Shown here: piece after piece, positions 3 to 32,235 of the stretch | Layout of the letters: each line of letters begins with the position of its first letter | Position numbering within the stretch: the first letter of the stretch is position 1 | Origin: a virus | IMG/VR virus record: IMGVR_UViG_3300037189_002988 | Span: 1 to 64,000 of that record | Strand: one strand, 5' to 3' | Length of the DNA: 64,000 nucleotides | Translations under genes and position numbers: made by a program | Notes under the pieces: generated by a model | Databases searched by the model: none | Seen by the model: the letters and a program-made list of their open reading frames with translations, nothing else | What the model was told of the DNA's origin: nothing

Positions 3-515
3 ATTACTACAGGTAATGACTTTCCATGGTATTGGAATGAAAATACTTCTGGCTATGAAAAGAGCGATGCTAAAGATGCAAACTTCGCGGGGTTTCAATA
101 TGGCTTCTATCATGTCTTATATCATAATGATCAAACAGTATCTCATTTCTATAAAGACTTTGAACCATTGTTATATTTTATGGAAGAAAAGACTGGCATA
201 GATGTAAAGTCTGTCTATAGAGTTAGAGCAGCCCTTAATACTTGGACTCCTAATGATCTCCAACACCATGCTCACGTAGATATGAAATATCCTCATAATG
301 TTCTTTTATATTATGTCAATGACTCAGACGGTGATACCTTTATGTATAACGAGGTTCAAGAACTCGGGGAAGAAAGTCCTACTGAATTTACTCTTCATAG
401 TAGATATACTCCTAAACAAGGAGATGCTGTATTATTCGATGGACTAAGATATCATTCTTCTAGTAAGCCTAAAGAGCATTCTAAAAGAATTATTGTCAAT
501 ATAGACTTTTACTAA
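3..515 (+). CDS. 2-oxoglutarate/Fe(II)-dependent oxygenase, 5'-truncated by window edge
   Basis: The frame is open from the first bases of the window, so the true start lies upstream. The visible 170 residues have the features of a 2OG-Fe(II) dioxygenase: an FPWYW-type segment near the start, an HVD metal-binding pair in QHHAHVDMKYP, a distal His in RYHSS, and an Arg in SKRIIVNIDF for the 2-oxoglutarate carboxylate. Such enzymes hydroxylate proteins, nucleobases or small molecules; phages often carry them with unknown substrates. It converges on a minus-strand gene 24 bases downstream. The family call is fairly sure; the substrate cannot be told. Confidence 0.75.
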   Translation: MTTGNDFPWYWNENTSGYEKSDAKDANFAGFQYGFYHVLYHNDQTVSHFYKDFEPLLYFMEEKTGIDVKSVYRVRAALNTWTPNDLQHHAHVDMKYPHNVLLYYVNDSDGDTFMYNEVQELGEESPTEFTLHSRYTPKQGDAVLFDGLRYHSSSKPKEHSKRIIVNIDFY

Positions 516-539
516 AAAACCAGGGGGTAATAAAAATCC

Positions 540-752
540 CTATTCTGGTGAATATTCTTTCCATAATCCAATAGGACAAGAAGCATGAGCCATTTGGCAT
601 TTTAAATTCATAAAACAACCACATTTCTTACATTGGGAAGTCATCTTAATAAAATTATCACATGTTAGACAAGTATTTATTCTATCTGCAAATACTTCAC
701 TTGGTACATATTGTGTATTAGGGTTTAATAGATCCCATGGTTTTGCATTCAT
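540..752 (-). CDS. small cysteine-rich zinc-binding protein
   Basis: This 70-residue protein has seven cysteines: C28-x2-C31, then C41-x2-C44-x-C46 (CKKCGC), C52 and C59 in a CPxGxW ending. The pattern resembles small zinc-ribbon proteins common in aquatic phages, whose role is unknown. There is no Shine-Dalgarno. Instead an extended -10 (TGATAATAT on the minus strand) lies 6 bases before the ATG, so the mRNA is probably leaderless. It is divergent from the membrane protein/halogenase operon. Confidence 0.7.
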   Translation of the reverse strand: MNAKPWDLLNPNTQYVPSEVFADRINTCLTCDNFIKMTSQCKKCGCFMNLKCQMAHASCPIGLWKEYSPE

Positions 753-758
753 TCGATA

Positions 759-767
759 ATATTATCA
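759..767 (-). promoter_or_regulatory. extended -10, leaderless promoter
   Basis: Read on the minus strand this is TGA-TAATAT, followed by six bases and then the ATG at 752. A transcript starting 7 bases after the -10 would begin on the A of the start codon. Confidence 0.5.
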
Positions 768-781
768 TACCCCCCAGAATT

Positions 782-810
782 TTGCAAGAGAGACGATAGT
801 CTCCTATTGT
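782..810 (+). promoter_or_regulatory. promoter with palindromic operator in its spacer
   Basis: TTGCAA (782-787), a 17-base spacer and TATTGT (805-810) form a moderate sigma-70-like promoter for the membrane protein/halogenase operon. The spacer holds an interrupted palindrome, GAGAC-GATA-GTCTC (790-803), placed where a repressor would block polymerase. TTTGCA (781-786) and TGCAAA (810-815) could extend it as an outer stem next to the GGGGAGG ribosome-binding sequence. Confidence 0.4.
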
Positions 811-825
811 GCAAAGGGGAGGGGA

Positions 826-1152
826 GTGCTATACTTATATCGCCGACTTAAAAGAATGGACTGTATGAAGCACCTTGAATGGATCGCCGCGTTGAAAACA
901 ATGCGAAATAAGAAATATTGGAATAAACCTAATACTGTTGAATTTTGGGCTTTTTCTACAAAACTTAGCATTATCTTCCCAGGCTTGCTTTTAGGGAAAC
1001 AATGGTGGTGGTTGTATATTTTCGCCCTTGTTTCATCCCTTGCTTTAATATGGTCATCCACGAAAAAAACTTTACCGACTATAATTCTTTTTAACATCGG
1101 ATGGTCTATACTTGCTAGTATCGCCTTACTCAAACACTTTTTAGGGGCATAA
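826..1152 (+). CDS. small integral membrane protein, coupled to halogenase
   Basis: A protein of up to 108 residues with a basic N-terminus and two to three hydrophobic segments: one around GLLLGKQWWWLYIFALVSS and one around the C-terminal LPTIILFNIGWSILASIALL. I do not recognise the family. The start is uncertain. GTG at 826 lies close to GGGGAGG; ATGs at 856 and 865 are in frame and would give about 98 and 95 residues. Its stop is one base before the halogenase GTG, so the two are probably translated together. The pairing suggests a membrane partner, such as a transporter or an anchor for substrate supply, but this is inference. Confidence 0.6.
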   Translation: MLYLYRRLKRMDCMKHLEWIAALKTMRNKKYWNKPNTVEFWAFSTKLSIIFPGLLLGKQWWWLYIFALVSSLALIWSSTKKTLPTIILFNIGWSILASIALLKHFLGA

Positions 1153-1153
1153 C

Positions 1154-2752
1154 GTGAAATCAAAGAACATTAAAAGCATTACCATTGTTGGCGGCGGAAC
1201 TTCAGGCTGGATTACCGCCTCACTTCTAATTAACAAATTTCCAGATAAACAAATTACACTTGTTGAGTCTGAAGACATTCCTACTGTAGGTGTTGGCGAA
1301 AGTACCCTCGGCGGAATTAACTACTTATTCTATACACTAGGACTTAAAGATGAAGACTGGATGAAAAAATGTAATGCATCATACAAGATGAGTATTAAAT
1401 TTACTGACTTTTACGATAAAGATGCAGGTGGATTTCACTACCCATTCGGACAACCATATCTACAAGATACTATGTGGGGTCTATGGGATTGGCACTTAAT
1501 GAAATATAAGAATCCTGATTTATCATGGGAAGATTATTCAAGATGCTATATTCCATCAGCAGCACTATACGAACAAAATAAAATTTCAGATAATGAAAAT
1601 GGTGAATTTGACAACTTTACACCAGCAACAGATGTTGCTTATCATTTTGATGCAGCATTACTAGGAAGATTTTTAAGAGATGAATACTCAAAGCCTAGAG
1701 GTGTAACTCATATCTTTGGTACCGTAAAAGACGTAGTACTTGGAGATAAAGGTGTAGAAAATGTAGTACTAGAAGATGGAACAGTATTATCATCTGATCT
1801 ATACATTGACTGCACAGGTTTTAAGAGTCTACTATTAGATAAAGCATTAAAAGAACCATTCATTTCAAAGGCTGACGTACTAGTAAACAATAGTGCTTGG
1901 GCTACAAGAATTGAATATAAAGATAAAGAAAAAGAATTAGAACCATTTACTAATGGAACAGCAATTGAAAACGGATGGTGCTGGAATATTCCATTGTGGT
2001 CACGTCTTGGTGCTGGCTATGTATATAGCGATAAGTATGCAACACCAGAGCAAGCATTAGAAGAATTTAAAAACTATTTAATGTCTGACAAAATGGTTAT
2101 ACCTAGAACTAAAGAAGAAGTAGAGGCTTTAGAATTTAGAAGCATTAAGATGCGTGTTGGAATCCACGAAAGAACATGGGTAAAGAACGTAGTAGCAATC
2201 GGCTTATCTGCTGGCTTTATCGAACCACTAGAAAGCAATGGTTTATTTAGCGTTCACGAATTCTTATTTAAACTTGTAAGAATTTTATCTTTGCCAAAAG
2301 TAAATCAAATGGATAAAGATGTTTATAACGCATCAGTAAGAGGTATGTTTGAAAACTTTACAGAGTTTGTTTCATTACACTATGCATTAAGTCACAGAGA
2401 TGATACCAAGTACTGGCAAGATATTCAAGAAAGAACATTTAGTGAAAAGATGGTCAAGTTAATTCCAGACAGAACTGTTGGTTACTTTGACTTCCAAGAT
2501 CTATATATGTTTAAGCAACAATATTCTGATCCACATGGAGGTATTCATTTCATTGCTACTGGTCTTCAATATCAATTATTAGATGATCATACATTTGCTG
2601 GAAAAAAACTTGCAAATCCATATCAAAACTATAATGAAATAAATACTACTATAAAAGCCAACTTCTTAAATAAAAAGAACAGATGGATGAAGGCTGCTGA
2701 AAAAGCACCTAAGTTAACAGAATATCTAAAGAATAGAATCTATAAAGATTAG
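1154..2752 (+). CDS. flavin-dependent halogenase (tryptophan-halogenase family)
   Basis: This 532-residue protein matches the FADH2-dependent halogenases that use O2 and halide to make HOCl/HOBr. It has the FAD-binding GGGTSGW (13-19), GVGEST (46-51), a Lys at 78 in ASYKMSIKF that aligns in position with the catalytic Lys of PrnA/RebH, the family hallmark WCWNIP (275-280), and FIEPLES with Glu360 matching the second catalytic residue. Length is normal for the family (about 510-540). It starts at GTG after AGGGG, one base after the upstream membrane-protein stop. Cyanophage halogenases such as VirX1 are known; the substrate here (free tryptophan, indole or another phenolic) is unknown. A flavin reductase is not visible and may come from the host. 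Confidence 0.9.
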   Translation: MKSKNIKSITIVGGGTSGWITASLLINKFPDKQITLVESEDIPTVGVGESTLGGINYLFYTLGLKDEDWMKKCNASYKMSIKFTDFYDKDAGGFHYPFGQPYLQDTMWGLWDWHLMKYKNPDLSWEDYSRCYIPSAALYEQNKISDNENGEFDNFTPATDVAYHFDAALLGRFLRDEYSKPRGVTHIFGTVKDVVLGDKGVENVVLEDGTVLSSDLYIDCTGFKSLLLDKALKEPFISKADVLVNNSAWATRIEYKDKEKELEPFTNGTAIENGWCWNIPLWSRLGAGYVYSDKYATPEQALEEFKNYLMSDKMVIPRTKEEVEALEFRSIKMRVGIHERTWVKNVVAIGLSAGFIEPLESNGLFSVHEFLFKLVRILSLPKVNQMDKDVYNASVRGMFENFTEFVSLHYALSHRDDTKYWQDIQERTFSEKMVKLIPDRTVGYFDFQDLYMFKQQYSDPHGGIHFIATGLQYQLLDDHTFAGKKLANPYQNYNEINTTIKANFLNKKNRWMKAAEKAPKLTEYLKNRIYKD

Positions 2753-2760
2753 TAAAAGGA

Positions 2761-2802
2761 GAGAGCCAACCCCTGTGGTGTGGTGGTGGGGGGCTGGCTC
2801 TC
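2761..2802. terminator. strong hairpin between convergent genes
   Basis: GAGAGCCA(A)CCCC pairs with GGGG(G)CTGGCTCTC across a G/T-rich loop, between the halogenase stop and the convergent minus-strand gene. There is no U-run, so it may act as a bidirectional, U-less terminator as seen in actinobacteria. Confidence 0.6.
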
Positions 2803-2845
2803 AGACTATGAGGAACTATATGTGTTCCAGACTTATTATTATACC

Positions 2846-3082
2846 TTAGTTTGCAGATCCTGTCAAACGATTTTCAACTAACTTTTCTCTTTCATCAATA
2901 ATTTTAAAAGCCCATTCTTTAATAGAGTCTTCTACTTTCTTATAATGATGTCCACAGAATAATAATTCTCCAGATACCCCGCTTGCACTAACATAGGCTT
3001 GAGCCTCACAGCGATCACAACGATCTAAGGCTGTCAATTTGTATTTAACTTCTTCTTTTTCAATCAATTTAGATTTTGTCAT
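2846..3082 (-). CDS. DUF7455-like small zinc-finger protein
   Basis: A 78-residue protein with LTALDRCDRCEAQAY followed by GELLFCGHH: C22-x2-C25 and C43-x-H45-H46, presumably one zinc site. This signature matches the small DUF7455 proteins of Actinomycetota, function unknown, and is the best single host clue in the window. I prefer ATG at 3082 because AAGGAG lies 8 bases upstream; a GTG at 3091 would sit only 2 bases from that site. The C-terminal half is predicted helical and charged. It is convergent with the halogenase. Confidence 0.75.
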   Translation of the reverse strand: MTKSKLIEKEEVKYKLTALDRCDRCEAQAYVSASGVSGELLFCGHHYKKVEDSIKEWAFKIIDEREKLVENRLTGSAN

Positions 3083-3141
3083 ATTCACCACTCCTTGGTA
3101 TTAATTATAAGGGGTAAAAAGATAGATTGTCAATAATAAAA

Positions 3142-3150
3142 TGTTACAAT
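3142..3150 (+). promoter_or_regulatory. extended -10 with near-leaderless start
   Basis: TGT-TACAAT ends 9 bases before the ATG at 3160, and no Shine-Dalgarno is present. TTGTCA at 3127-3132 is too close to act as its -35. Confidence 0.4.
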
Positions 3151-3159
3151 GATAATGTT

Positions 3160-3471
3160 ATGAATTTTAATATCTTAACCTCTACCGCCGAATTATGGCA
3201 AACCCTCACAATTATAGGTGTAGCCCTCAGTGTTGGTTATGCAATGGCTAGAAGATTTGAAGGACTTCTTAGTAAAAATAAAAAAGGTGACACAATAGTT
3301 GAAAGATTAGAAAAAATAGAAAGACAACTACAGCCAAATGGCGGGTCAAGTATGTCAGACAAAATTGACTATATTCGTAGAGATCAAAATAAAATGAAAA
3401 ATGAACTTTCTCAAATTTCTGGAGAATTAGAAGTAATTAAAGATATCGTAATCTCAATAGTAGAAAAATAA
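3160..3471 (+). CDS. membrane-anchored coiled-coil phage protein (DUF2746-like)
   Basis: A 103-residue protein with one N-terminal transmembrane segment (about 12-27, LWQTLTIIGVALSVGYAMA) and a charged helical tail containing QPNGGSSMSDKIDYI. That PNGGSS-x-DKID signature recurs in single-pass actinophage membrane proteins annotated as DUF2746 or holin-like. The C-terminal 45 residues look coiled-coil. An upstream in-frame TTG (3127) lies inside promoter sequence and is rejected. It may belong to the lysis apparatus or be a virion membrane contact; evidence is thin. Confidence 0.6.
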   Translation: MNFNILTSTAELWQTLTIIGVALSVGYAMARRFEGLLSKNKKGDTIVERLEKIERQLQPNGGSSMSDKIDYIRRDQNKMKNELSQISGELEVIKDIVISIVEK

Positions 3472-3473
3472 TT

Positions 3474-3482
3474 TGGTATAAT
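3474..3482 (+). promoter_or_regulatory. extended -10 TGGTATAAT, start of tail-fibre region
   Basis: An extended -10 just after the membrane-protein stop. It is followed by a perfect 5-bp hairpin, AAGGC-GTACA-GCCTT (3489-3503), directly upstream of the TAGGAG ribosome-binding site. The hairpin may stabilise the 5' end of the long tail-fibre transcript. Confidence 0.5.
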
Positions 3483-3515
3483 GAAACTAAGGCGTACAGC
3501 CTTTAGGAGTACCCT

Positions 3516-3860
3516 ATGACCCCAGGGAAATTGAATTTTGTCTGTCCACAAGGAAGCACATTCCGTAGGACATTGACCTATAAAATTGACGAAACACCAG
3601 TAAATCTAACTGGATATTCTGCACGTCTACAAGTAAGAGAAACTCACGACTCAACTGACTATATTGTATATCTAACAAATGGAAATGGCATTACCCTTGG
3701 TGGAAGTGCTGGAACAATTGATATCTTAATAGCAGATTCAACAACAACAAACTTCATCACTGGGGACCACGTTTACGATCTAGAAGTAGAATCAGTAAGT
3801 GGTATTACAGATCGTTTAATCGAAGGTAGATTTAATGTCACCCCAGAGGTGACTCGTTAA
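3516..3860 (+). CDS. LtfC-like beta-sandwich tail protein (copy 1)
   Basis: A 114-residue all-beta protein with the FVCPQGSTFRRTLTY opening, PVNLTGYSARLQVR and a YDLEVES-to-FNVTPEVTR ending. This matches the LtfC/p132/Gp6-type beta-sandwich proteins at the head of tail-fibre operons in actinophages. It probably links fibres to the tail tip. TAGGAG precedes the ATG. It overlaps the next gene by one base (TAATG). A divergent second copy with the same context is at 23928. Confidence 0.65.
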   Translation: MTPGKLNFVCPQGSTFRRTLTYKIDETPVNLTGYSARLQVRETHDSTDYIVYLTNGNGITLGGSAGTIDILIADSTTTNFITGDHVYDLEVESVSGITDRLIEGRFNVTPEVTR

Positions 3861-4204
3861 TGGCAGAAGTAACTGTATCAGTTGTTGAAAGTCCAGTAAC
3901 AGTTATCTCTGCAGAACAAAATGTAGATGTATCAGTAAACGAACAAACAGTTGTAATCAGTCTTGGAACCTCTGGTCCACAAGGCCCAGCAGGAACAGTT
4001 GATTATGGCGAGTTAGGATATGTTCATACACAAACAACAGCAGCAACAGTATGGACTGTCAATCACGGATTAGGGTTTATACCTAATGTAACAGTAGTAG
4101 ATTCAGCAGGAACAGTTATTGAGGGGTCATATAACTATCCTAATGAAAATACTATAGTACTAACCTTTGCTGGAGCATTTTCAGGAAAGGCTTATTTTTC
4201 ATAA
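3860..4204 (+). CDS. small tail-fibre protein with short collagen-like segment
   Basis: A 114-residue protein with a Val-rich beta N-terminus, a short GPQGPAG collagen-like turn (about 49-55) and a C-terminal beta domain of the form W-x-V-x-HGLG-x-P-x-V-x-V-x-D. A similar C-terminal domain closes the next gene (THNLNSRDVVVNVYD). It lies between the LtfC-like protein and a larger fibre and is probably a short fibre or linker of the same complex. Confidence 0.6.
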   Translation: MAEVTVSVVESPVTVISAEQNVDVSVNEQTVVISLGTSGPQGPAGTVDYGELGYVHTQTTAATVWTVNHGLGFIPNVTVVDSAGTVIEGSYNYPNENTIVLTFAGAFSGKAYFS

Positions 4205-4222
4205 AAAGGGCAGGTGAAATAA

Positions 4223-5641
4223 ATGAGTAGAAAATTTTTAACGAACTTAGATCTTAATACCAATCAATTACTGAATGGTGTTATTCAAAATCTTGGAACA
4301 GATCCAGAAACTGGAAAAGCAGGTCAAGTTTATTTTAATACCTCAAATCAAAAATTAAAATTCTACAATGGCTCTGCTTCAGCATGGCAATTCGTAGGTG
4401 CTTCTAACGAAGAAATTGAAGATTTAATTGCACAATTAATTGATGCAGGAACTGGTATTTCTGTAAACTATAATGACGAAACAAGTAGTTTAGTTATTAC
4501 TAACACTGGTGTAACAGCCCTTGTTGGTACTGCAAACGAAATTGACGTATCTGCATCAACAGGTTCTGTAACACTAAGTTTACCATCAACAATTAATGCT
4601 AACACTACAGGAAACGCAGCAACTGCTTCTGCATTAGAAACAGCAAGAACAATCTCCCTAGGTGGAGATTTAAGTGGTAGTGCTAGTTTTAAAGGTGATC
4701 AAAATATCACAATTAATGCAACAGTTCAACCAAACTCTGTAGCACTAGGAACTGATACAACAGGTGACTATGTTGCATCTGCATCAGCAGGAACTGGTAT
4801 TAGTATTAGCGGAAGTGGCGAAGGTGCTGCTTTAACAATTACTAACACTGGCGTAACAAGTCTTTCTGGAACAAACAATGAAATTACTGTATCTGCATCA
4901 GCAGGTGCTGTACAAATTGGTTTGCCAGATAACGTAACAGTCGCTGGTGATTTAGTTGTAGACGGAAACTTAACAGTATCAGGTAGCACAACATACTTAA
5001 ATACAGCAACACTAACTGTAGAAGACAACATTGTTCTTCTTAACAGTAATGCCACAGGAACTCCTGTTGCAGATGCTGGTATTGAAGTAGAACGTGGAGA
5101 CGGACCTAATTCATCTTTTTATTGGGATGAATCAGAAGGTAAGTGGACTTCAAGTAACGGTGTAACAAATACTGCCGTATCGCTAGAAGGACACGGACAC
5201 TCTTCAATTAACATTAGTGACTTTCAAGAGGCCGTAGAAGATGTAGTTGGAGCAATGGCAACAGATTCTGGAACCATTGACTTTGCTTACACTGATAACG
5301 GAACAGGTGCTGGAACACTTAGTGCTTCCGTAGTACTTGCCGCATCTAATTCATACTTGTCAAGAGCAGCAGGATTAGCAGTAGATAAGTCAGCATTAGA
5401 AACAGCACTCGTAACAGATGGCTTCACAAAGAAGGCTTCTGCTAACGTTGGAAACGGTTCATCACTTTCATTTGCAATTACTCATAATCTAAACAGCAGA
5501 GATGTTGTTGTAAACGTTTATGATAATTCTTCTTTTGACACAGTAGAAACTGATGTTGTTAGAACAGACGCAAATACAGTAACTGTATCATTTGCAACAG
5601 CACCAACAAACAACGCATACCGCGTAGTTATCGTTGGATAG
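4223..5641 (+). CDS. tail fibre protein
   Basis: A 472-residue, Ser/Thr/Ala/Gly-rich fibre. The N-terminus (MSRKFLTNLDLNTNQLLNG, then GQVYFNTSNQKLKFYNGSAW-like text) resembles the attachment domain at the start of the next gene. The middle has repeated ISGSGE/TNTGVTSLSGT beta-helix-like segments and a repeated TITNTGV module. The last 60 residues are the same beta domain type as in the previous protein. A Shine-Dalgarno-like GGCAGGTGA precedes the ATG. Role: receptor-binding or side fibre; the receptor is unknown. Confidence 0.7.
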   Translation: MSRKFLTNLDLNTNQLLNGVIQNLGTDPETGKAGQVYFNTSNQKLKFYNGSASAWQFVGASNEEIEDLIAQLIDAGTGISVNYNDETSSLVITNTGVTALVGTANEIDVSASTGSVTLSLPSTINANTTGNAATASALETARTISLGGDLSGSASFKGDQNITINATVQPNSVALGTDTTGDYVASASAGTGISISGSGEGAALTITNTGVTSLSGTNNEITVSASAGAVQIGLPDNVTVAGDLVVDGNLTVSGSTTYLNTATLTVEDNIVLLNSNATGTPVADAGIEVERGDGPNSSFYWDESEGKWTSSNGVTNTAVSLEGHGHSSINISDFQEAVEDVVGAMATDSGTIDFAYTDNGTGAGTLSASVVLAASNSYLSRAAGLAVDKSALETALVTDGFTKKASANVGNGSSLSFAITHNLNSRDVVVNVYDNSSFDTVETDVVRTDANTVTVSFATAPTNNAYRVVIVG

Positions 5642-5654
5642 TATAAAATATATT

Positions 5655-5680
5655 GAGGGGGTAGTGAAACACCTACCCTC
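5655..5680 (+). terminator. hairpin in gap after first fibre gene
   Basis: GAGGG(G)GTAG pairs with CTACCCTC in the 56-base gap, with no U-run. It could attenuate transcription or protect the mRNA between the two large fibre genes. Confidence 0.35.
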
Positions 5681-5697
5681 TCTAACTAAGGATTAAA

Positions 5698-8600
5698 ATG
5701 GCAAAAAGGTTTTTAACACCTACAGGTTTAGTGAGTTTAGCCTCAGATCCAGCAACTGGGTCAGAGGGTAATCTGTACTTTAATAATACCTCTGATGTCA
5801 TTAAAATATATAGAAATGGTGCTTGGGAAAACTTAGTACATACAAGTGAAGAAATACAAGATGCAGCATCAGGTCTTTTAGACCATAGTAATCATGTAAA
5901 CATAGAAGCAACATATGACGACAATAATAATCAAATAATTTTAGAAGCAGATTTATCATCAGTAGGAGCAACAGGATACTATGGATCTTTTTACCATAGT
6001 TCTTCTGCAATAATAAGTGCGTCTGCAACAACACAAGAAGTAGTAATTCCAATTAATACAACAGCAGAAGCAAATGGTGTATCAATTCAAAATAATATTT
6101 CAGGAAAACCAACAAGAATAAAATTTGCAAATGCTGGTGTTTACAATATTCAATTTTCAGTACAATTAGCAAATAGTAATAATACAATTCATAATGCTAC
6201 TATCTGGCTTAAAAAGAATGGAACTAATGTTCCTTCATCAAGTGGTCAAGTAACTGTACCAGAAAAACATGGAGGTGTTAATGGTCAAATAATTCAAGCA
6301 TGGAATTATGTAATGAGTTTAGCAGCAAATGATTTTATTGAATTTTATTTTCAAGTAGAAGATATAGGTATATTTATTGAAACAATTCCTGTTGGAACAA
6401 CACCAACAACTCCAGAAAGTCCAGCAATTATTGTTACAGCACAACAAATTACAAATACACTTGCTCCAGGATTTGGCGGTAGTGGAAGTTCATTCTATCT
6501 AAATGATCTATTAGATGTATCTATTATTAGTCCAGAGAATCATCAATTAGTAGCATTTAATCAAGAAACAGGATTATGGAAGAATTTACACCCCTCAGAA
6601 ATTAACTTAGCAACATTAACAAATTTAAACTCAGCAAGCACATCACTTCTTGCATCAGCATCAACACTTTATATTCCAAAGACTGATCAACAGTCAATAA
6701 TTAACACAGCATCAGCAGCAGCAGTAAACTATGTTGTTGATTCAGCACCAGGTGCACTAGATACTCTAAATGAATTAGCAGCAGCATTAAACGATGATGC
6801 AAACTTTGCTTCTACCGTTATAGGAACAATAGCATCATCATCTGCAGCAGCAGTATCATCAGCAGTTTCTTCAGCAAGTGCAAATACTGTATCTCAAATT
6901 AATGCTTTAACTACATCTGATATTGAAGAGGGTAGCAGACTATACTTTACAAATCAAAGATCTTTAACTACAGCATCAACTGCTTTAGTACATAGCAATC
7001 ATACAAATATTACTGCTACATACAACTCAGCAAGTAATCAAATTATATTAACAGGAAATGCTGGAGGTGGTGGAGCAGGTGGTGATGGTGCCTCTGTTAT
7101 ATATTCAACAGAACAACCAGATACAAGCCAACTCTCTATTGGTGATATATGGGTAGATAGTAACGCTTCTGTGGGGTATAGTGGAAGTTCTACTCCTTTT
7201 GTAAATCAACTTACATATTGGTTAGAAGATGATAATGGAAATCTATTACCAGATGCAGATAATGTTTACTCAGTAGGATCAAGTGCTTTTAGAGTAAAAG
7301 ACTTATATCTTGGTGCTTCATCTCTTTATATGCAAAATCCATCAAGTCCTAATCAAAATATTGCATTAACTATGGACTTAAATGGAAATATGCAAATTGG
7401 AAATCATAAGATTATTACTACTGGAAATGCTCAATCAAATCTAGACTTATCATCATATGCAACAAAACTTTATGCAAATTCAGCAAGTGCTTATGCTTTA
7501 AATTCAGCAAGTGCTTATACACAGTCACAACTTGACAGTGCATCATCAAATCTTACATCTTCAATAAATACAAAACTTTCTATACAATCAGCATCAACAA
7601 CATATGCTACAAAGGCAGAATTATCAAATGTTAATGTTGACTTATCAGCATACTTAAGTAAGGCTGAGGCTAGTGCAATGTATCAAAAACGTATTCCATA
7701 TTCATCTGCATCTCCTACCCCTACACAATTGGGTGATATGTGGGTTGATAATACAGGAACTGCTGCAATTTTAAATATTTGGGATGGAAATGAATGGAAG
7801 TATGAATCATATGTACCAACTCCAAATGTTCTGTCAATTCTTCCAGTTAGTTCAACATCAGCAGGAACTATTATAGATATTACTGGAGCAAACTTTGTAT
7901 CTGGTGCAACAGTACAGTTTATTGGAACAAATGGTACACCATATAATGCAACAGTTGTTCAAAGAGTTTCAGCAACATTACTAAAAGCAACCACACCAGC
8001 ACTTGCACAAGCATATGAACCATATAGTATTAAAGTTATAAACCCAAGTGGAAACTATGGAATATTGGCTGGAGCATTAGATGCTGGATCTACACCAGCA
8101 TGGATTACACCACAAGGATCTATAGGAACTCTTTACGATATTGAAAGAGGAATTAAAACATTTAATGTTAGTGCTAGTGATGCAGATTTACAAAGTCTTC
8201 AATATTCAATTGTTGGAGGAGCACTACCTGCTGGAATGATTTTAAGTGCATCTGCTGGAGTAATATCTGGATTAGCGTCTCCAGTTGTAAATGACACAAC
8301 ATATACATTTGATGTAAGAGCAAGTGATGGAATAAACTCATCAACCAGAACATTTAGTTTATTAATGAAAGCACCAGTAACAATAACATATACATCAGTT
8401 GGAAGCAACACATTTACTGCACCTACTGCATTAACTTATGTTAAAATTCTTCTAGTTGGTGGAGGTGGAGGTGCTGGAAGCAGTCGAGGAAATGGACCTG
8501 GCGGTAACGGTGGTGGTGGTGGTATTGTTTATAATCCATTAGTTGCTGTAACTGCTGGACAAACTTATTCATTAAACGTTGGTGGTGCAGGATCAGGTTC

Positions 8601-8931
8601 TGGATGTAATAATCAATCTGGATGTAGCGGTGGAGTAACAACAGGATTTGGTGGAACAGCAGGTGGTGGAGGTGGTGGTGTATCAGAACATAACGGAAAT
8701 TGTAACAGTGGTTGGGCTGGAACATCTTCAATGGTTGGAGCAACAGCACTTTATGAAGGTGGTTCTGGAGGATGTTCATTTGGTGCAGGTGGTGGAGGAA
8801 CACAATACTCAAACTCTGAATTTGGATCACCTACAACATTTGGTGGACAGTGTGCATCACAATATTATGGTGGTGGAGGATGTCACTCAGGTGGCGGCGG
8901 AGCACAGGGTATTATTAGGGTTAAATACTAA
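5698..8931 (+). CDS. large multidomain tail fibre with IPT, Ig-like and Gly-rich domains
   Basis: A 1077-residue mosaic fibre. In order: an N-terminal dock like that of the previous gene (1-50); a C1q/TNF-like jelly-roll stretch (about 95-260); Ser/Ala-rich repeats with STTYATKAEL-type coils (about 580-680); an IPT/TIG-like domain (about 706-790, ILPVSSTSAGTIIDITGANF); a putative Ig/cadherin-like domain (about 797-895, LPAGMILSASAGVISG); and a glycine-rich C-terminal domain (about 905-1077) ending GAQGIIRVKY. The last domain is the same type as the seven separate Gly-rich proteins downstream. The Gly-rich tip is probably the receptor-binding end. Confidence 0.75.
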   Translation: MAKRFLTPTGLVSLASDPATGSEGNLYFNNTSDVIKIYRNGAWENLVHTSEEIQDAASGLLDHSNHVNIEATYDDNNNQIILEADLSSVGATGYYGSFYHSSSAIISASATTQEVVIPINTTAEANGVSIQNNISGKPTRIKFANAGVYNIQFSVQLANSNNTIHNATIWLKKNGTNVPSSSGQVTVPEKHGGVNGQIIQAWNYVMSLAANDFIEFYFQVEDIGIFIETIPVGTTPTTPESPAIIVTAQQITNTLAPGFGGSGSSFYLNDLLDVSIISPENHQLVAFNQETGLWKNLHPSEINLATLTNLNSASTSLLASASTLYIPKTDQQSIINTASAAAVNYVVDSAPGALDTLNELAAALNDDANFASTVIGTIASSSAAAVSSAVSSASANTVSQINALTTSDIEEGSRLYFTNQRSLTTASTALVHSNHTNITATYNSASNQIILTGNAGGGGAGGDGASVIYSTEQPDTSQLSIGDIWVDSNASVGYSGSSTPFVNQLTYWLEDDNGNLLPDADNVYSVGSSAFRVKDLYLGASSLYMQNPSSPNQNIALTMDLNGNMQIGNHKIITTGNAQSNLDLSSYATKLYANSASAYALNSASAYTQSQLDSASSNLTSSINTKLSIQSASTTYATKAELSNVNVDLSAYLSKAEASAMYQKRIPYSSASPTPTQLGDMWVDNTGTAAILNIWDGNEWKYESYVPTPNVLSILPVSSTSAGTIIDITGANFVSGATVQFIGTNGTPYNATVVQRVSATLLKATTPALAQAYEPYSIKVINPSGNYGILAGALDAGSTPAWITPQGSIGTLYDIERGIKTFNVSASDADLQSLQYSIVGGALPAGMILSASAGVISGLASPVVNDTTYTFDVRASDGINSSTRTFSLLMKAPVTITYTSVGSNTFTAPTALTYVKILLVGGGGGAGSSRGNGPGGNGGGGGIVYNPLVAVTAGQTYSLNVGGAGSGSGCNNQSGCSGGVTTGFGGTAGGGGGGVSEHNGNCNSGWAGTSSMVGATALYEGGSGGCSFGAGGGGTQYSNSEFGSPTTFGGQCASQYYGGGGCHSGGGGAQGIIRVKY

Positions 8932-8948
8932 GGGGTTATGATTATAAT

Positions 8949-9644
8949 ATGTCTTCAGCACAAATACTAGATATTACTAGACCAGCATATGTTTGGAATG
9001 GCACTAACTGGGTGCCAATTACTCAAACAAGAAACGATGCTGTTCTTTATCAACCAACTCAACCAGACGTTAGTGCTTTAGATGTAGGAACAGTCTGGGT
9101 AGATAGTAATGATTATCTAGGTACTGGAATAGTAAATCCTAATGGATTTGGATACATAACAACAACTCCAGCAACACAACAAATATTAGCAGACTCAGAT
9201 TTTGATAATATTAATCTACAGGCTGGAAATAGCATAACAATTAATGCTGCTAGTGCTACAAATACTATTACTATATCTTCTACAATTACAAACTTAAATA
9301 GTCTTACAGATAGCACTATTGCTTCCCCTTCAAATAATCAATTATTAGCATATAATTCTTCTTCCGCTCAATGGACTAATCAGAATATAATGAATATTCT
9401 TTCTACCGCCAATGCTTCAGCAACATACTTAACAGTAACAGCAGCATCTGCTACATATGAACCAAATATTACCTATAATTCTTCATCCCCTGCATATCAA
9501 ATTGCAACTGGACAACTTTGGATTGATACAACAGATGCCGAGGCACCAATATTGAAAGTGTATAATGGAAGTACCTGGATTGAAATGTCAGGTGCTGGTG
9601 GCGGTGGGGATGTCTTTGACACACTGCTGCTTATGGGAGTATAA
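8949..9644 (+). CDS. cassette A protein (copy 1): RPAYVWNG-type fibre dock
   Basis: A 231-residue protein beginning with TRPAYVWNGTNWVPI, a motif shared with genes at 13664, 18955 and 23642 and, more distantly, 28833 and 30887. It then has a YQPTQPDVSALDVGTVWVDS segment, Ser/Ala/Thr coil-like repeats with ASATYLTVTAASATYE, and a second WNG-like motif. It ends GAGGGGDVFDTLLLMGV, as do the other A proteins (LMGx/FFGAY). I infer that the N-terminal motif docks the protein on the tail. It is followed directly by B and G cassette genes. Confidence 0.6.
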   Translation: MSSAQILDITRPAYVWNGTNWVPITQTRNDAVLYQPTQPDVSALDVGTVWVDSNDYLGTGIVNPNGFGYITTTPATQQILADSDFDNINLQAGNSITINAASATNTITISSTITNLNSLTDSTIASPSNNQLLAYNSSSAQWTNQNIMNILSTANASATYLTVTAASATYEPNITYNSSSPAYQIATGQLWIDTTDAEAPILKVYNGSTWIEMSGAGGGGDVFDTLLLMGV

Positions 9645-26603: not shown

Positions 26604-26852
26604 ATGAATTATAAATTTAAACCACTAAGCCCTATTGCAGAAAATAGTGGGGTTGTAAAAAAGGTAGATCTTGGAACTCATTATTCAACCTTTATAAGTC
26701 CATTTGATTTTGAAGTAGATGAATCTAATGATATGTATGTATGTGGAAAAGAATATAGCATTAATGAATCAAAAGCCGAAGAACTATTCTTATCTGGATA
26801 TGGACATTTTTTAGACCCAGCATTTATTCAAGATATTGAAGAAGAAGTTTAA
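26604..26852 (+). CDS. small acidic protein of unknown function
   Basis: An 82-residue protein, acidic, with SPFDFEVDESNDMYVCG and a helical ESKAEELFLSGYGHFLDP end. I do not recognise it. It follows an adhesin gene with a weak AAGGAAAA site. Its stop overlaps by four bases the stop of the convergent carbamoyltransferase gene. It could be an adhesin chaperone, given its place and size, but no motif supports that. Confidence 0.5.
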   Translation: MNYKFKPLSPIAENSGVVKKVDLGTHYSTFISPFDFEVDESNDMYVCGKEYSINESKAEELFLSGYGHFLDPAFIQDIEEEV

Positions 26853-28399
26853 AACAATAATCCTTTTTTAGGAAACCAAATAGCATCTAATGCTGTAGAT
26901 CTTAATACATTAATAGCCTCTTCTGGAGTTTCAACTAATGGCATTCCTGCTGTATTAAAACTAGTATTTAATAATATTCCTATACCAGTATTTTTCTTAA
27001 ACTCTTTTAATAGTTCGTAGATATGTCCTGAGTTAACTGTTTGAATTCTAGAAGTATTATCAACATGAACAACAGATGGAATCATAGAAGATACCCCATC
27101 TTTACATTTATAAGCAACAGTCATATATTCATTCTTAGTATCACTATTTGTATGAAAGTATTCTTGAAAATCTTCTTCTAGCATTACTGCACCAAATGGT
27201 CTATACCATTCTCTATTCTTTATTTTGTTTACAATATCTTTACCATCTTTGTTTCTTGGGTCAAATAGTATTGATCTATTTCCTAATGCTCTAGGTCCAG
27301 CCTCGGATTTACCATTAAAGACACCAATAGTTTTTTGATCTAGTAAAATTTTAACAATATCAGCATATAAGGCGTTTACTGTATTAATATCTAGGTCATA
27401 GTCAAATCCTTGAAAAAAGGTATCTTTTAGGGGATATATAGACTTGTCTAAGGTCATATCCCTATAAACATTCATTGCAGCACCAATACTATTTCCACTA
27501 TCGTCAGCAATTGGTTCAAAATAAAAATTAATACCCTCACAATTTTCAAGGTAGTAATTATTTGCTATTACATTTAAACCATACCCACCAGTAATACATA
27601 CATTGTTAATACCAGTTTCTTTGGTAAATTTTTTTATAAGTTTTAGTACCTGCTCTTGTGTTTGCTTTTGGACTTGATGTGCATAATCGGCATAAGGTTG
27701 ATAGTTTTCTTTTGTAACACCGTCTACTCTAATGTTTTTATTCTTCTTTAGTATAGATACGCTTGTATCAAATCTATCCATAAGTAAACCTTCAAAAAGA
27801 TGATTTTTAACTTTGCCATCTTCATAAAAGAAATCATCTGACTTGGATGAGTTTCCGTATGACGACAGTCCCATAGTTTTTCCATTCTCTAAAGGATGTT
27901 GACCAATAAGGGTAGTGGCTGATTCATATACCTTTACAATTCCTAAACCATTATTATCCCAATATCTTTTATGCAGCGTCTTAAATACGCTAGGATATTC
28001 TGCTACTAAAACAGTTTCACATTCATGACCTTTATTATTAACATAAGATCCATTTCTATCAACTATGATTACAAGACTTTTTTCAAACCCACTATTATAA
28101 AATGCCAAAGAAGCGTGTTGCTGATGGTGCATATGAGAAAGACTTAATATATCTTTTGAATACATTTTTGAAAGGTATGTAGATAGATAACTATCATAGT
28201 TATTATAGAATGGATTAGCAACTACTATATGGTCTATAGAATTCTTATATCTATCTTTTACTATATCTAAAGATTTCCAGGGATACATGTCCCTTTTTAC
28301 ACCAGTAAATCTTTCTTCTTTATAAAATTCTTTTACTTTGCCATTTTCTACAAGTGCAACTGAACTATCGTGCATAGAACTTACACCTAAAATTATCAT
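26849..28399 (-). CDS. NodU/CmcH-family carbamoyltransferase
   Basis: A 516-residue protein with both halves of the family. The N-terminal Kae1-like domain has GVSSMHDSS, the metal-binding HMHHQQHA (His91/His95) and VDRNGS (Asp114); the GYGLNVIANN segment is near residue 260. The C-terminal domain has the hallmark SEAGPRALGNRSIL and the LNTSFNTAGMPLVETPEEA ending. These enzymes use carbamoyl phosphate and ATP to O-carbamoylate hydroxyls on sugars, antibiotics or, in some phages, hydroxymethylated DNA bases. It is the only minus-strand gene in the fibre region. A TTGATT-N17-TATACT promoter is placed so that the mRNA would be leaderless. Substrate unknown; surface glycan or DNA are both possible. 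Confidence 0.88.
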   Translation of the reverse strand: MIILGVSSMHDSSVALVENGKVKEFYKEERFTGVKRDMYPWKSLDIVKDRYKNSIDHIVVANPFYNNYDSYLSTYLSKMYSKDILSLSHMHHQQHASLAFYNSGFEKSLVIIVDRNGSYVNNKGHECETVLVAEYPSVFKTLHKRYWDNNGLGIVKVYESATTLIGQHPLENGKTMGLSSYGNSSKSDDFFYEDGKVKNHLFEGLLMDRFDTSVSILKKNKNIRVDGVTKENYQPYADYAHQVQKQTQEQVLKLIKKFTKETGINNVCITGGYGLNVIANNYYLENCEGINFYFEPIADDSGNSIGAAMNVYRDMTLDKSIYPLKDTFFQGFDYDLDINTVNALYADIVKILLDQKTIGVFNGKSEAGPRALGNRSILFDPRNKDGKDIVNKIKNREWYRPFGAVMLEEDFQEYFHTNSDTKNEYMTVAYKCKDGVSSMIPSVVHVDNTSRIQTVNSGHIYELLKEFKKNTGIGILLNTSFNTAGMPLVETPEEAINVLRSTALDAIWFPKKGLLF

Positions 28400-31143: not shown

Positions 31144-32235
31144 ATGTCAAAACCTACCCTTTGTTATTTGACCTACGATTGGTCATGGGGAACTAAACCA
31201 CTACAACCTAATGGCTGTGCATGGTATCGATGCTTTCTTCCAATGGAAGAGTTAAAGAAAAAGGACTGGGAAGTTGGAATGGGATTTCCTGGATTTCACC
31301 CAGAACACGGATTTGGATTATTAATACCTGAATCAAAAGCAGTACATGGTTGGGATATTGTTGTATTAAAACTAATGATGTTAGATAGCATTGTTGAAAA
31401 TATTCCAAAGGCTAAAGAGGCTGGTCAAAAAATAGTTATTGATATTGATGATCATCATGCTGGATTAGAACCAACAAATATGGCCTATATAGCAACAGAT
31501 CCAAAAACTAATCCAAAAAATAATAGAGAGCATTACTTTAAGTCAATGGACTTAGCAGATGCACTTATTACTTCAACTCCATTCCTACATGATTTTTATA
31601 AAAAGAAATATCCAGACAAACCAATATATCTTGTTCGTAATGCTGTAGATCTACAATACTTTGGAATGAGAAAAGATAAGTCTGGAGCATTTCCAACAGT
31701 TGGGTGGGTTGGTGCAACACCTTGGCGTTCAAGTGATTTAGAAACACTTAATCCTTTTGTAGGAGAATTTATTGAAAAGAATAATCTTAGATTCCATCAC
31801 TCTGGATCTATTATTAATGCTCCAACAGTTCAAGAACAAATGGGTATTCCTGTAAAAAGTTTTTCATCTCAACCAATGAAGCCAATATTAACATATAAAG
31901 AACTATTTAATAGAATCGACATCGGACTAGTTCCATTAAATGAGGTTGAGTTTAATCGTGCAAAATCTTTTATTAAAGGACTTGAATACGCTGCTGCTGG
32001 AATACCATTTATTGCAGAGGACATGGAAGAATACTCACATCTTTATAATGAATACGGAATAGGCAGGGTAGCAAAAACAAAAGACCAATGGCTATCTCAT
32101 TTAGAAGATTTAAAGAATCCTAAGACAAGAAATATTGAAAGACAAAATAACTATAAATTAATAAAACAATTCCACAGTATGGAAGTAAGAGGGGAAGACT
32201 GGGATAAAGTTTTTAGAGAGATTAGAGAACTTTAG
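31144..32235 (+). CDS. GT-B-type glycosyltransferase
   Basis: A 363-residue protein. The N-terminal half has NGCAWYRCFLPMEELK and VIDIDDHHAGLEPTN; the C-terminal Rossmann half has TVGWVGATPW, RIDIGLVPLN and the nucleotide-sugar-binding FNRAKSFIKGLEYAAAGIPFIAED, typical of GT4-like enzymes in phage genomes. It could glycosylate phage DNA, virion proteins such as the adhesins, or host surface polymers. It sits directly after the fibre region under its own strong promoter and converges on the lysin gene with a 4-base overlap. Confidence 0.8.
   Translation: MSKPTLCYLTYDWSWGTKPLQPNGCAWYRCFLPMEELKKKDWEVGMGFPGFHPEHGFGLLIPESKAVHGWDIVVLKLMMLDSIVENIPKAKEAGQKIVIDIDDHHAGLEPTNMAYIATDPKTNPKNNREHYFKSMDLADALITSTPFLHDFYKKKYPDKPIYLVRNAVDLQYFGMRKDKSGAFPTVGWVGATPWRSSDLETLNPFVGEFIEKNNLRFHHSGSIINAPTVQEQMGIPVKSFSSQPMKPILTYKELFNRIDIGLVPLNEVEFNRAKSFIKGLEYAAAGIPFIAEDMEEYSHLYNEYGIGRVAKTKDQWLSHLEDLKNPKTRNIERQNNYKLIKQFHSMEVRGEDWDKVFREIREL

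Follow-up and report, generated by a model that had tools for sequence, protein, structure and literature searches.

The gene of a predicted flavin-dependent halogenase (hal) and the gene of a small, very conserved membrane protein (mem) co-occur in phage records far above chance. The two very probably constitute one functional module of dsDNA phages. We describe the module from a 64-kb window, the whole stretch of DNA analysed here, which is part of an 80.7-kb virus record (Table 1). A literature search that covered only a minority of subscription journals returned no paper on a membrane partner of phage halogenases, and the combination of a halogenase with a conserved membrane protein appears to be undescribed so far, its new element being the near-obligate partner.

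Table 1. Features at the halogenase end of the window
Feature	Position	Strand	Basis
2OG-Fe(II) oxygenase, 5' end beyond the start of the window or record	3..515	+	Weak PF13640 match, phrog_274/phrog_61, open frame
mem, predicted three-helix membrane protein, 95 aa	865..1152	+	Homologous starts, alignment, AF2 helices, purifying selection
hal, predicted VirX1-like flavin-dependent (tryptophan-type) halogenase, 532 aa, GTG start	1154..2752	+	PF04820, phrog_2928, match to PDB 6qgm, motifs
Strong hairpin just 3' of hal, candidate transcript end shared with a minus-strand unit	2761..2802		-24.3 kcal/mol, z -1.4

The product of hal is predicted to be a flavin-dependent halogenase of an already known kind. 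It belongs to PF04820 (E=5.9e-110, 368.7 bits against a cut-off of 21), matches phrog_2928 (E=1e-140, 471 bits), and among solved structures is closest in sequence to VirX1 of cyanophage Syn10 (6qgm, E=1.6e-95, residues 5-530). The FAD-binding motif GGGTSG occupies residues 13-18, and the key residues named in the earlier note, Lys78, WCWNIP (from residue 275) and Glu360, all stand where they had been placed. For the motif comparison we take K79 and E346 to be the catalytic lysine and glutamate of PrnA, and GxGxxG and WxWxIP to be the motifs. The catalytic lysine and glutamate are retained in all aligned halogenases that have mem as a partner. VirX1 shares with hal the full-length match, the FAD motif, the two catalytic residues and the phage origin, but the two proteins are only about 36% identical. 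The bacterial PF04820 enzymes PrnA, RebH, PyrH, Thal and SttH likewise share the family and the catalytic residues. The best-studied bacterial tryptophan halogenases act on free tryptophan and are encoded in biosynthetic clusters with a flavin reductase of their own, whereas the phage enzyme is accompanied by a membrane protein; in the genes examined around the phage pair we identified neither a flavin reductase nor a biosynthetic cluster. VirX1 has reportedly been characterised in vitro, and we know of no established role for it during infection. One viral contig (L020:897-5599) carries three different halogenase genes in tandem and lacks mem.

The reading frame of mem begins at ATG 865 (MKHLEW), because homologues begin there (MNIEW in L001 and L012). 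The start at 826 that had been assigned earlier is only an upstream in-frame GTG, and is excluded by these homologous starts. The single base between the two genes, on the other hand, was read correctly: the TAA stop codon of mem (1150-1152) is followed by C1153 and then by the GTG of hal. Relatives of mem on hundreds of contigs keep 65-83% amino acid identity while their synonymous sites are close to saturation, which identifies it as a real gene. The conserved core gives pS of 0.55-0.89 against pN of 0.09-0.22 (dN/dS about 0.1), a pattern indicative of strong purifying selection. In the AlphaFold model (pLDDT 79, pTM 0.64) an N-terminal helix (2-12) precedes three helices of membrane length (21-43, 48-64 and 71-93). 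In the numbering of the 95-aa window protein, the residues invariant in 34 diverse members are Y18, W19, N23, E26, K33, I36, I37, P39, G40, L41, W48, W49, F53, S58, L61, S65, K68, P71, F76, N77 and W80. The charged pair E26 and K33 falls within predicted membrane helix 1, conserved polar residues (among them S57, S58, S65, T66, K68 and N77) run along helices 2-3, and two of the four invariant tryptophans, W48 and W49, sit together at the start of a helix.

The earlier note had coupled the two genes and regarded a lack of co-occurrence in other genomes as the refutation of that pairing; the search of genome contexts instead finds them together in many lineages, in several gene orders and also unlinked. 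As possible targets of the pair the note had named a host signal, a toxin, a surface compound or grazers. Among viral records reached through mem and no shorter than 16 kb, 48 of 55 contain a PF04820 gene, or 50 of 57 when two records first reached via their halogenase are included. All 19 records that the mem scans yielded at 37 kb or longer have a halogenase, and the mem-bearing fragments that lack one are all about 30 kb or shorter. Starting from the halogenase, mem is missing from 13 of 28 records, and no homologue was detected in 12 cyanophage genomes with halogenases (Syn10 and 11 others), in which respect these differ from the window phage.

Control sets were assembled from records fetched by marker genes unrelated to the module. 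The portal of the window phage recovered 33 related records of at least 14 kb, four of them with hal and two with mem; both mem-positive records also carry hal, at a distance of 15 kb (G002) and 21 kb (G087), and mem occurs in none of the 29 hal-negative records. The primase of another lineage recovered 39 records, of which eight have both genes, four have mem only (all fragments of at most 26 kb), and 27 lack the two altogether; hal never occurs there alone. Pooled over all records of both controls, the association gives a Fisher p of 1.1e-7 with kinship among records ignored. When the controls are restricted to records of at least 37 kb (n=26), eight contain both genes, 18 contain neither and none is discordant (Fisher p = 6.4e-7, again ignoring kinship). 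The contigs are partly redundant, so that counts and p-values assume an independence that related contigs do not have, and the variety of gene arrangements is therefore the better argument.

Distinct local arrangements comprise 43 with hal ahead of mem and 15 with mem ahead of hal, in addition to spaced and opposite-strand cases. A stop/start overlap of 4 bp (ATGA) between the two genes is common. Unlinked pairs lie 15-37 kb apart in one record, and in G002, G087 and G064 the halogenase is found elsewhere in the record than mem. The membrane protein gene also occupies another locus, between a primase and a single-strand-binding-like gene, and the locus seen in the window is found without hal in L029 and L033. 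That the adjacency arose by local chance is ruled out by the marker-anchored controls and by the pairs that are in reversed order, separated or unlinked. In one otherwise intact hal-mem pair (L098, G028:C1:7962-9356) the halogenase frame is interrupted by a single TAA, which may reflect a pseudogene, recoding or a sequencing error.

The two partners are unequally conserved: averaged across 59 distinct pairs, identity is 0.73 between the membrane proteins and 0.36 between the halogenases. The membrane proteins of L058 and L138, both apparently in the primase locus, are 94% identical while their halogenases are 32% identical, and for L035 and L049 the corresponding values are 90% and 27%. In L150, mem lies one base ahead of a divergent (27%) halogenase-like flavoprotein of 401 aa (3638-4843) that preserves the lysine and glutamate motifs and may represent a new halogenase subfamily. 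Near-identical membrane proteins alongside halogenases of 27-32% identity suggest a service that is shared and not specific to a substrate: had mem been fitted to a single substrate or a single enzyme surface, one would expect it to change as halogenases are exchanged, but not if it handles something that every flavin-dependent halogenase has in common. To judge from these comparisons, mem probably meets a need shared by all such halogenases.

The protein encoded by mem is outside any described family. Searches of Pfam, PHROG and PDB sequences returned no family match. As a candidate holin it found nothing above noise in Pfam and only weak matches without function in PHROG. A pattern-plus-tblastn scan of viral contigs recovered 211 viral relatives, and an alignment-based scan at least 552; the neighbours of mem in the loci examined are hal, 2OG oxygenases, and tail or replication genes. 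Even at E up to 1, the window protein finds no relative among 50,697 deposited phage records. Among 84,980 bacterial genomes, only two homologues were found, in a Nitrospirota MAG (L111) and a Gammaproteobacteria MAG (L112), by a pattern-based scan from which diverged homologues may escape; with that reservation, the two hits argue against a bacterial origin of mem. No further homologue turned up in 368 other genomes searched from the class of L112, and the L112 protein found nothing at 0.01 among phages and plasmids. Both bacterial proteins show 41-43% identity and keep the invariant core YW-N-E-K-PG-WW-S-K-P-FN-W, but differ in that no halogenase was seen beside their genes. The contig of the L112 homologue (40-9000) bears a polyketide synthase, glycosyltransferase-like genes, an LmbE-like deacetylase and a TauD-family dioxygenase, surroundings that look like a natural-product cluster.

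Our tentative explanation of the module, which falls a little short of an even chance, is that mem acts as the transport partner of the halogenase at the cytoplasmic membrane. The halogenase would take reduced flavin from the host, O2 and halide to form an enzyme-bound hypohalite, which would then pass by way of K78 and E360 to an organic acceptor. The membrane protein, probably an oligomer, would move something that every such halogenase uses, either halide into the cell or, through the membrane, the aromatic substrate or the product that has been halogenated. Granted functional linkage, mem may be a transporter, a proposition we hold at slightly less than even confidence; a transporter is preferred to a passive anchor because of the charged E26 and K33 in helix 1 and the conserved polar residues. 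As to the cargo under the same premise, an organic substrate or product is possible but doubtful, and halide somewhat more so. A narrower version, in which mem is a phage importer of Cl-, Br- or I- dedicated to the flavin-dependent halogenase, required in halide-poor fresh water and dispensable at sea, is distinctly unlikely as a whole; it agrees with the partner swaps, and would explain both the pairing with unrelated halogenases and the absence of mem from cyanophages with VirX1-like enzymes, as seen in the 12 halogenase-bearing cyanophage genomes.

The predicted structure of mem shows a weak resemblance to the half-transporters of the MPC/SemiSWEET group (TOG superfamily), with which it shares its size and the plan of an N-terminal helix followed by three membrane helices. 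When the window model is compared with the PDB by Foldseek, the first places go to MPC and SemiSWEET, three-helix bundles with 1-3-2 packing, at a TM of up to 0.65-0.69 but with no significant match (E at least 1.3); SemiSWEET aligns with a TM of about 0.63-0.69 and MPC2 with a probability of 0.80, at E-values that are likewise not significant, and the search of BFVD returns PQ-loop proteins. Alignment to an MPC2-type profile places K33 on K49 and IW63 on IW82, a score that about 2% of block-shuffled controls surpass (p about 0.02); three of the MPC sequences used are unverified yeast sequences, and human MPC1 and MPC2 were checked against PDB chains. In MPC2, K49 and W82 line the pyruvate site (PMC12007569). 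The likeness is incomplete: N77 lies outside the aligned part and is not placed on N100 of MPC2, and the PQ motif of SemiSWEET is lacking. Moreover, the model of the L112 homologue (pLDDT 85) has no MPC or SemiSWEET match, and 26 members searched against Pfam, with the MPC and SWEET models included, gave no match to either at E up to 1. We therefore treat the resemblance as a lead and do not assign mem to this group.

The main rival to transport is that mem is an anchor or scaffold which draws the halogenase, a soluble enzyme, to the membrane's inner face, where the acceptor would be lipid-linked, part of the envelope or membrane-embedded (a glycolipid, a quinone or a cell-wall precursor, for example). 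Strict co-occurrence and translational coupling are what such an arrangement would produce, and in some lineages the neighbouring genes encode a sulfotransferase, APS kinase, DUF2061 protein, carbamoyltransferase or glycosyltransferases, as in the decoration of envelopes or metabolites; the polyketide synthase and dioxygenase genes adjoining the L112 homologue fit as well. An anchor must touch its enzyme, however, and one and the same mem accompanies halogenases with identities down to 27-32%. Its conservation, moreover, is concentrated within the membrane helices and not in a soluble docking part. We consider an anchoring role unlikely on this balance, though not negligibly so.

A protective role is less probable still, and we regard it as improbable. 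Here mem would support the halogenase by shielding the phage or the cell against escaping hypohalite or against the product of halogenation, or by remodelling the membrane, a reading that covers immunity, export of a toxic product and superinfection exclusion. It would explain why mem is so nearly obligatory beside any halogenase and why it is the better conserved of the two, and a small protein with three helices is typical of immunity and exclusion proteins. Against it, mem bears no similarity to known immunity families, and many halogenase phages do without it.

It is very improbable that mem is itself the substrate, modified on the invariant tryptophans W19, W48, W49 and W80. The number of these residues and the WW pair would suit such a target, and a halogenase acting on tryptophan within a peptide is documented for lanthipeptides (PMC11791876), but highly divergent halogenases would all need to recognise a single membrane-embedded protein, and the tryptophans look structural, as is common at membrane interfaces. 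That the two genes have no functional link, mem being an independent small phage gene of a holin-like or accessory kind in halogenase hot spots, is equally hard to credit: both genes are accessory, mem also occupies the primase locus and its window locus can lack hal, but the unlinked pairs and the total lack of discordance in the longer control records are at odds with independence.

The gene neighbourhoods offer some indication of the setting in which the module may act. In L045, L053, L054, L079 and similar loci, a conserved block with the order sulfotransferase, oxygenase-like gene, APS kinase (with a nucleotidyltransferase-like domain), DUF2061, halogenase and mem is observed, about 2-4 kb upstream of mem; by their gene content, these phages may produce activated sulfate and sulfate, as well as halogenate, some compound. 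The window encodes a Nol-like carbamoyltransferase (26849-28399, minus strand) and a glycosyltransferase (31144-32235, plus strand), and carbamoyltransferases similar to that of the window are found close to hal-mem in L038, L063, L084 and L085. The sulfotransferase, APS kinase and DUF2061 neighbours, together with the carbamoyltransferase and glycosyltransferase of the window, suggest that the module might act in small-molecule or envelope decoration. A recurrent family of about 240 aa (L036:4301-5041, minus strand, and relatives; cluster 15) occurs near halogenases, has weak similarity to DUF6065 and often adjoins 2OG oxygenases. In the window a 2OG-Fe(II) oxygenase gene stands just upstream of the pair, and the halogenase of cyanophage Sf-CH11 likewise lies between 2OG oxygenases.

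Streptomyces phages have portals 54% identical to that of the window phage, and next to the mem-hal pair lies a DUF7455 gene; together these make an actinobacterial host likely. In its relation to actinobacterial phages, the window phage differs from cyanophage Syn10. The membrane protein, present in hundreds of environmental phage sequences, gives a concrete handle on the role of viral halogenases, as it predicts a membrane step and adds a second gene to study, and it defines a protein family as yet unnamed in Pfam or PHROG. The pair can serve as a genomic signature for finding halogenase modules and choosing model phages, and suggests that these viruses use a chemical tool of two proteins that is so far undescribed.

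Downstream of hal, the minus strand (2750-2866) contains a promoter that matches the sigma-70 consensus perfectly (TTGACA-17-TATAAT); the window has only four of this kind. No ORF follows it; the unit would extend for about 70-90 nt, to a GC-rich hairpin whose loop reads CCACCACCACACCAC, together with a T-run. It has no match in Rfam and is a candidate phage small RNA, the promoter and hairpin of which are conserved in L001, L113 and L118.
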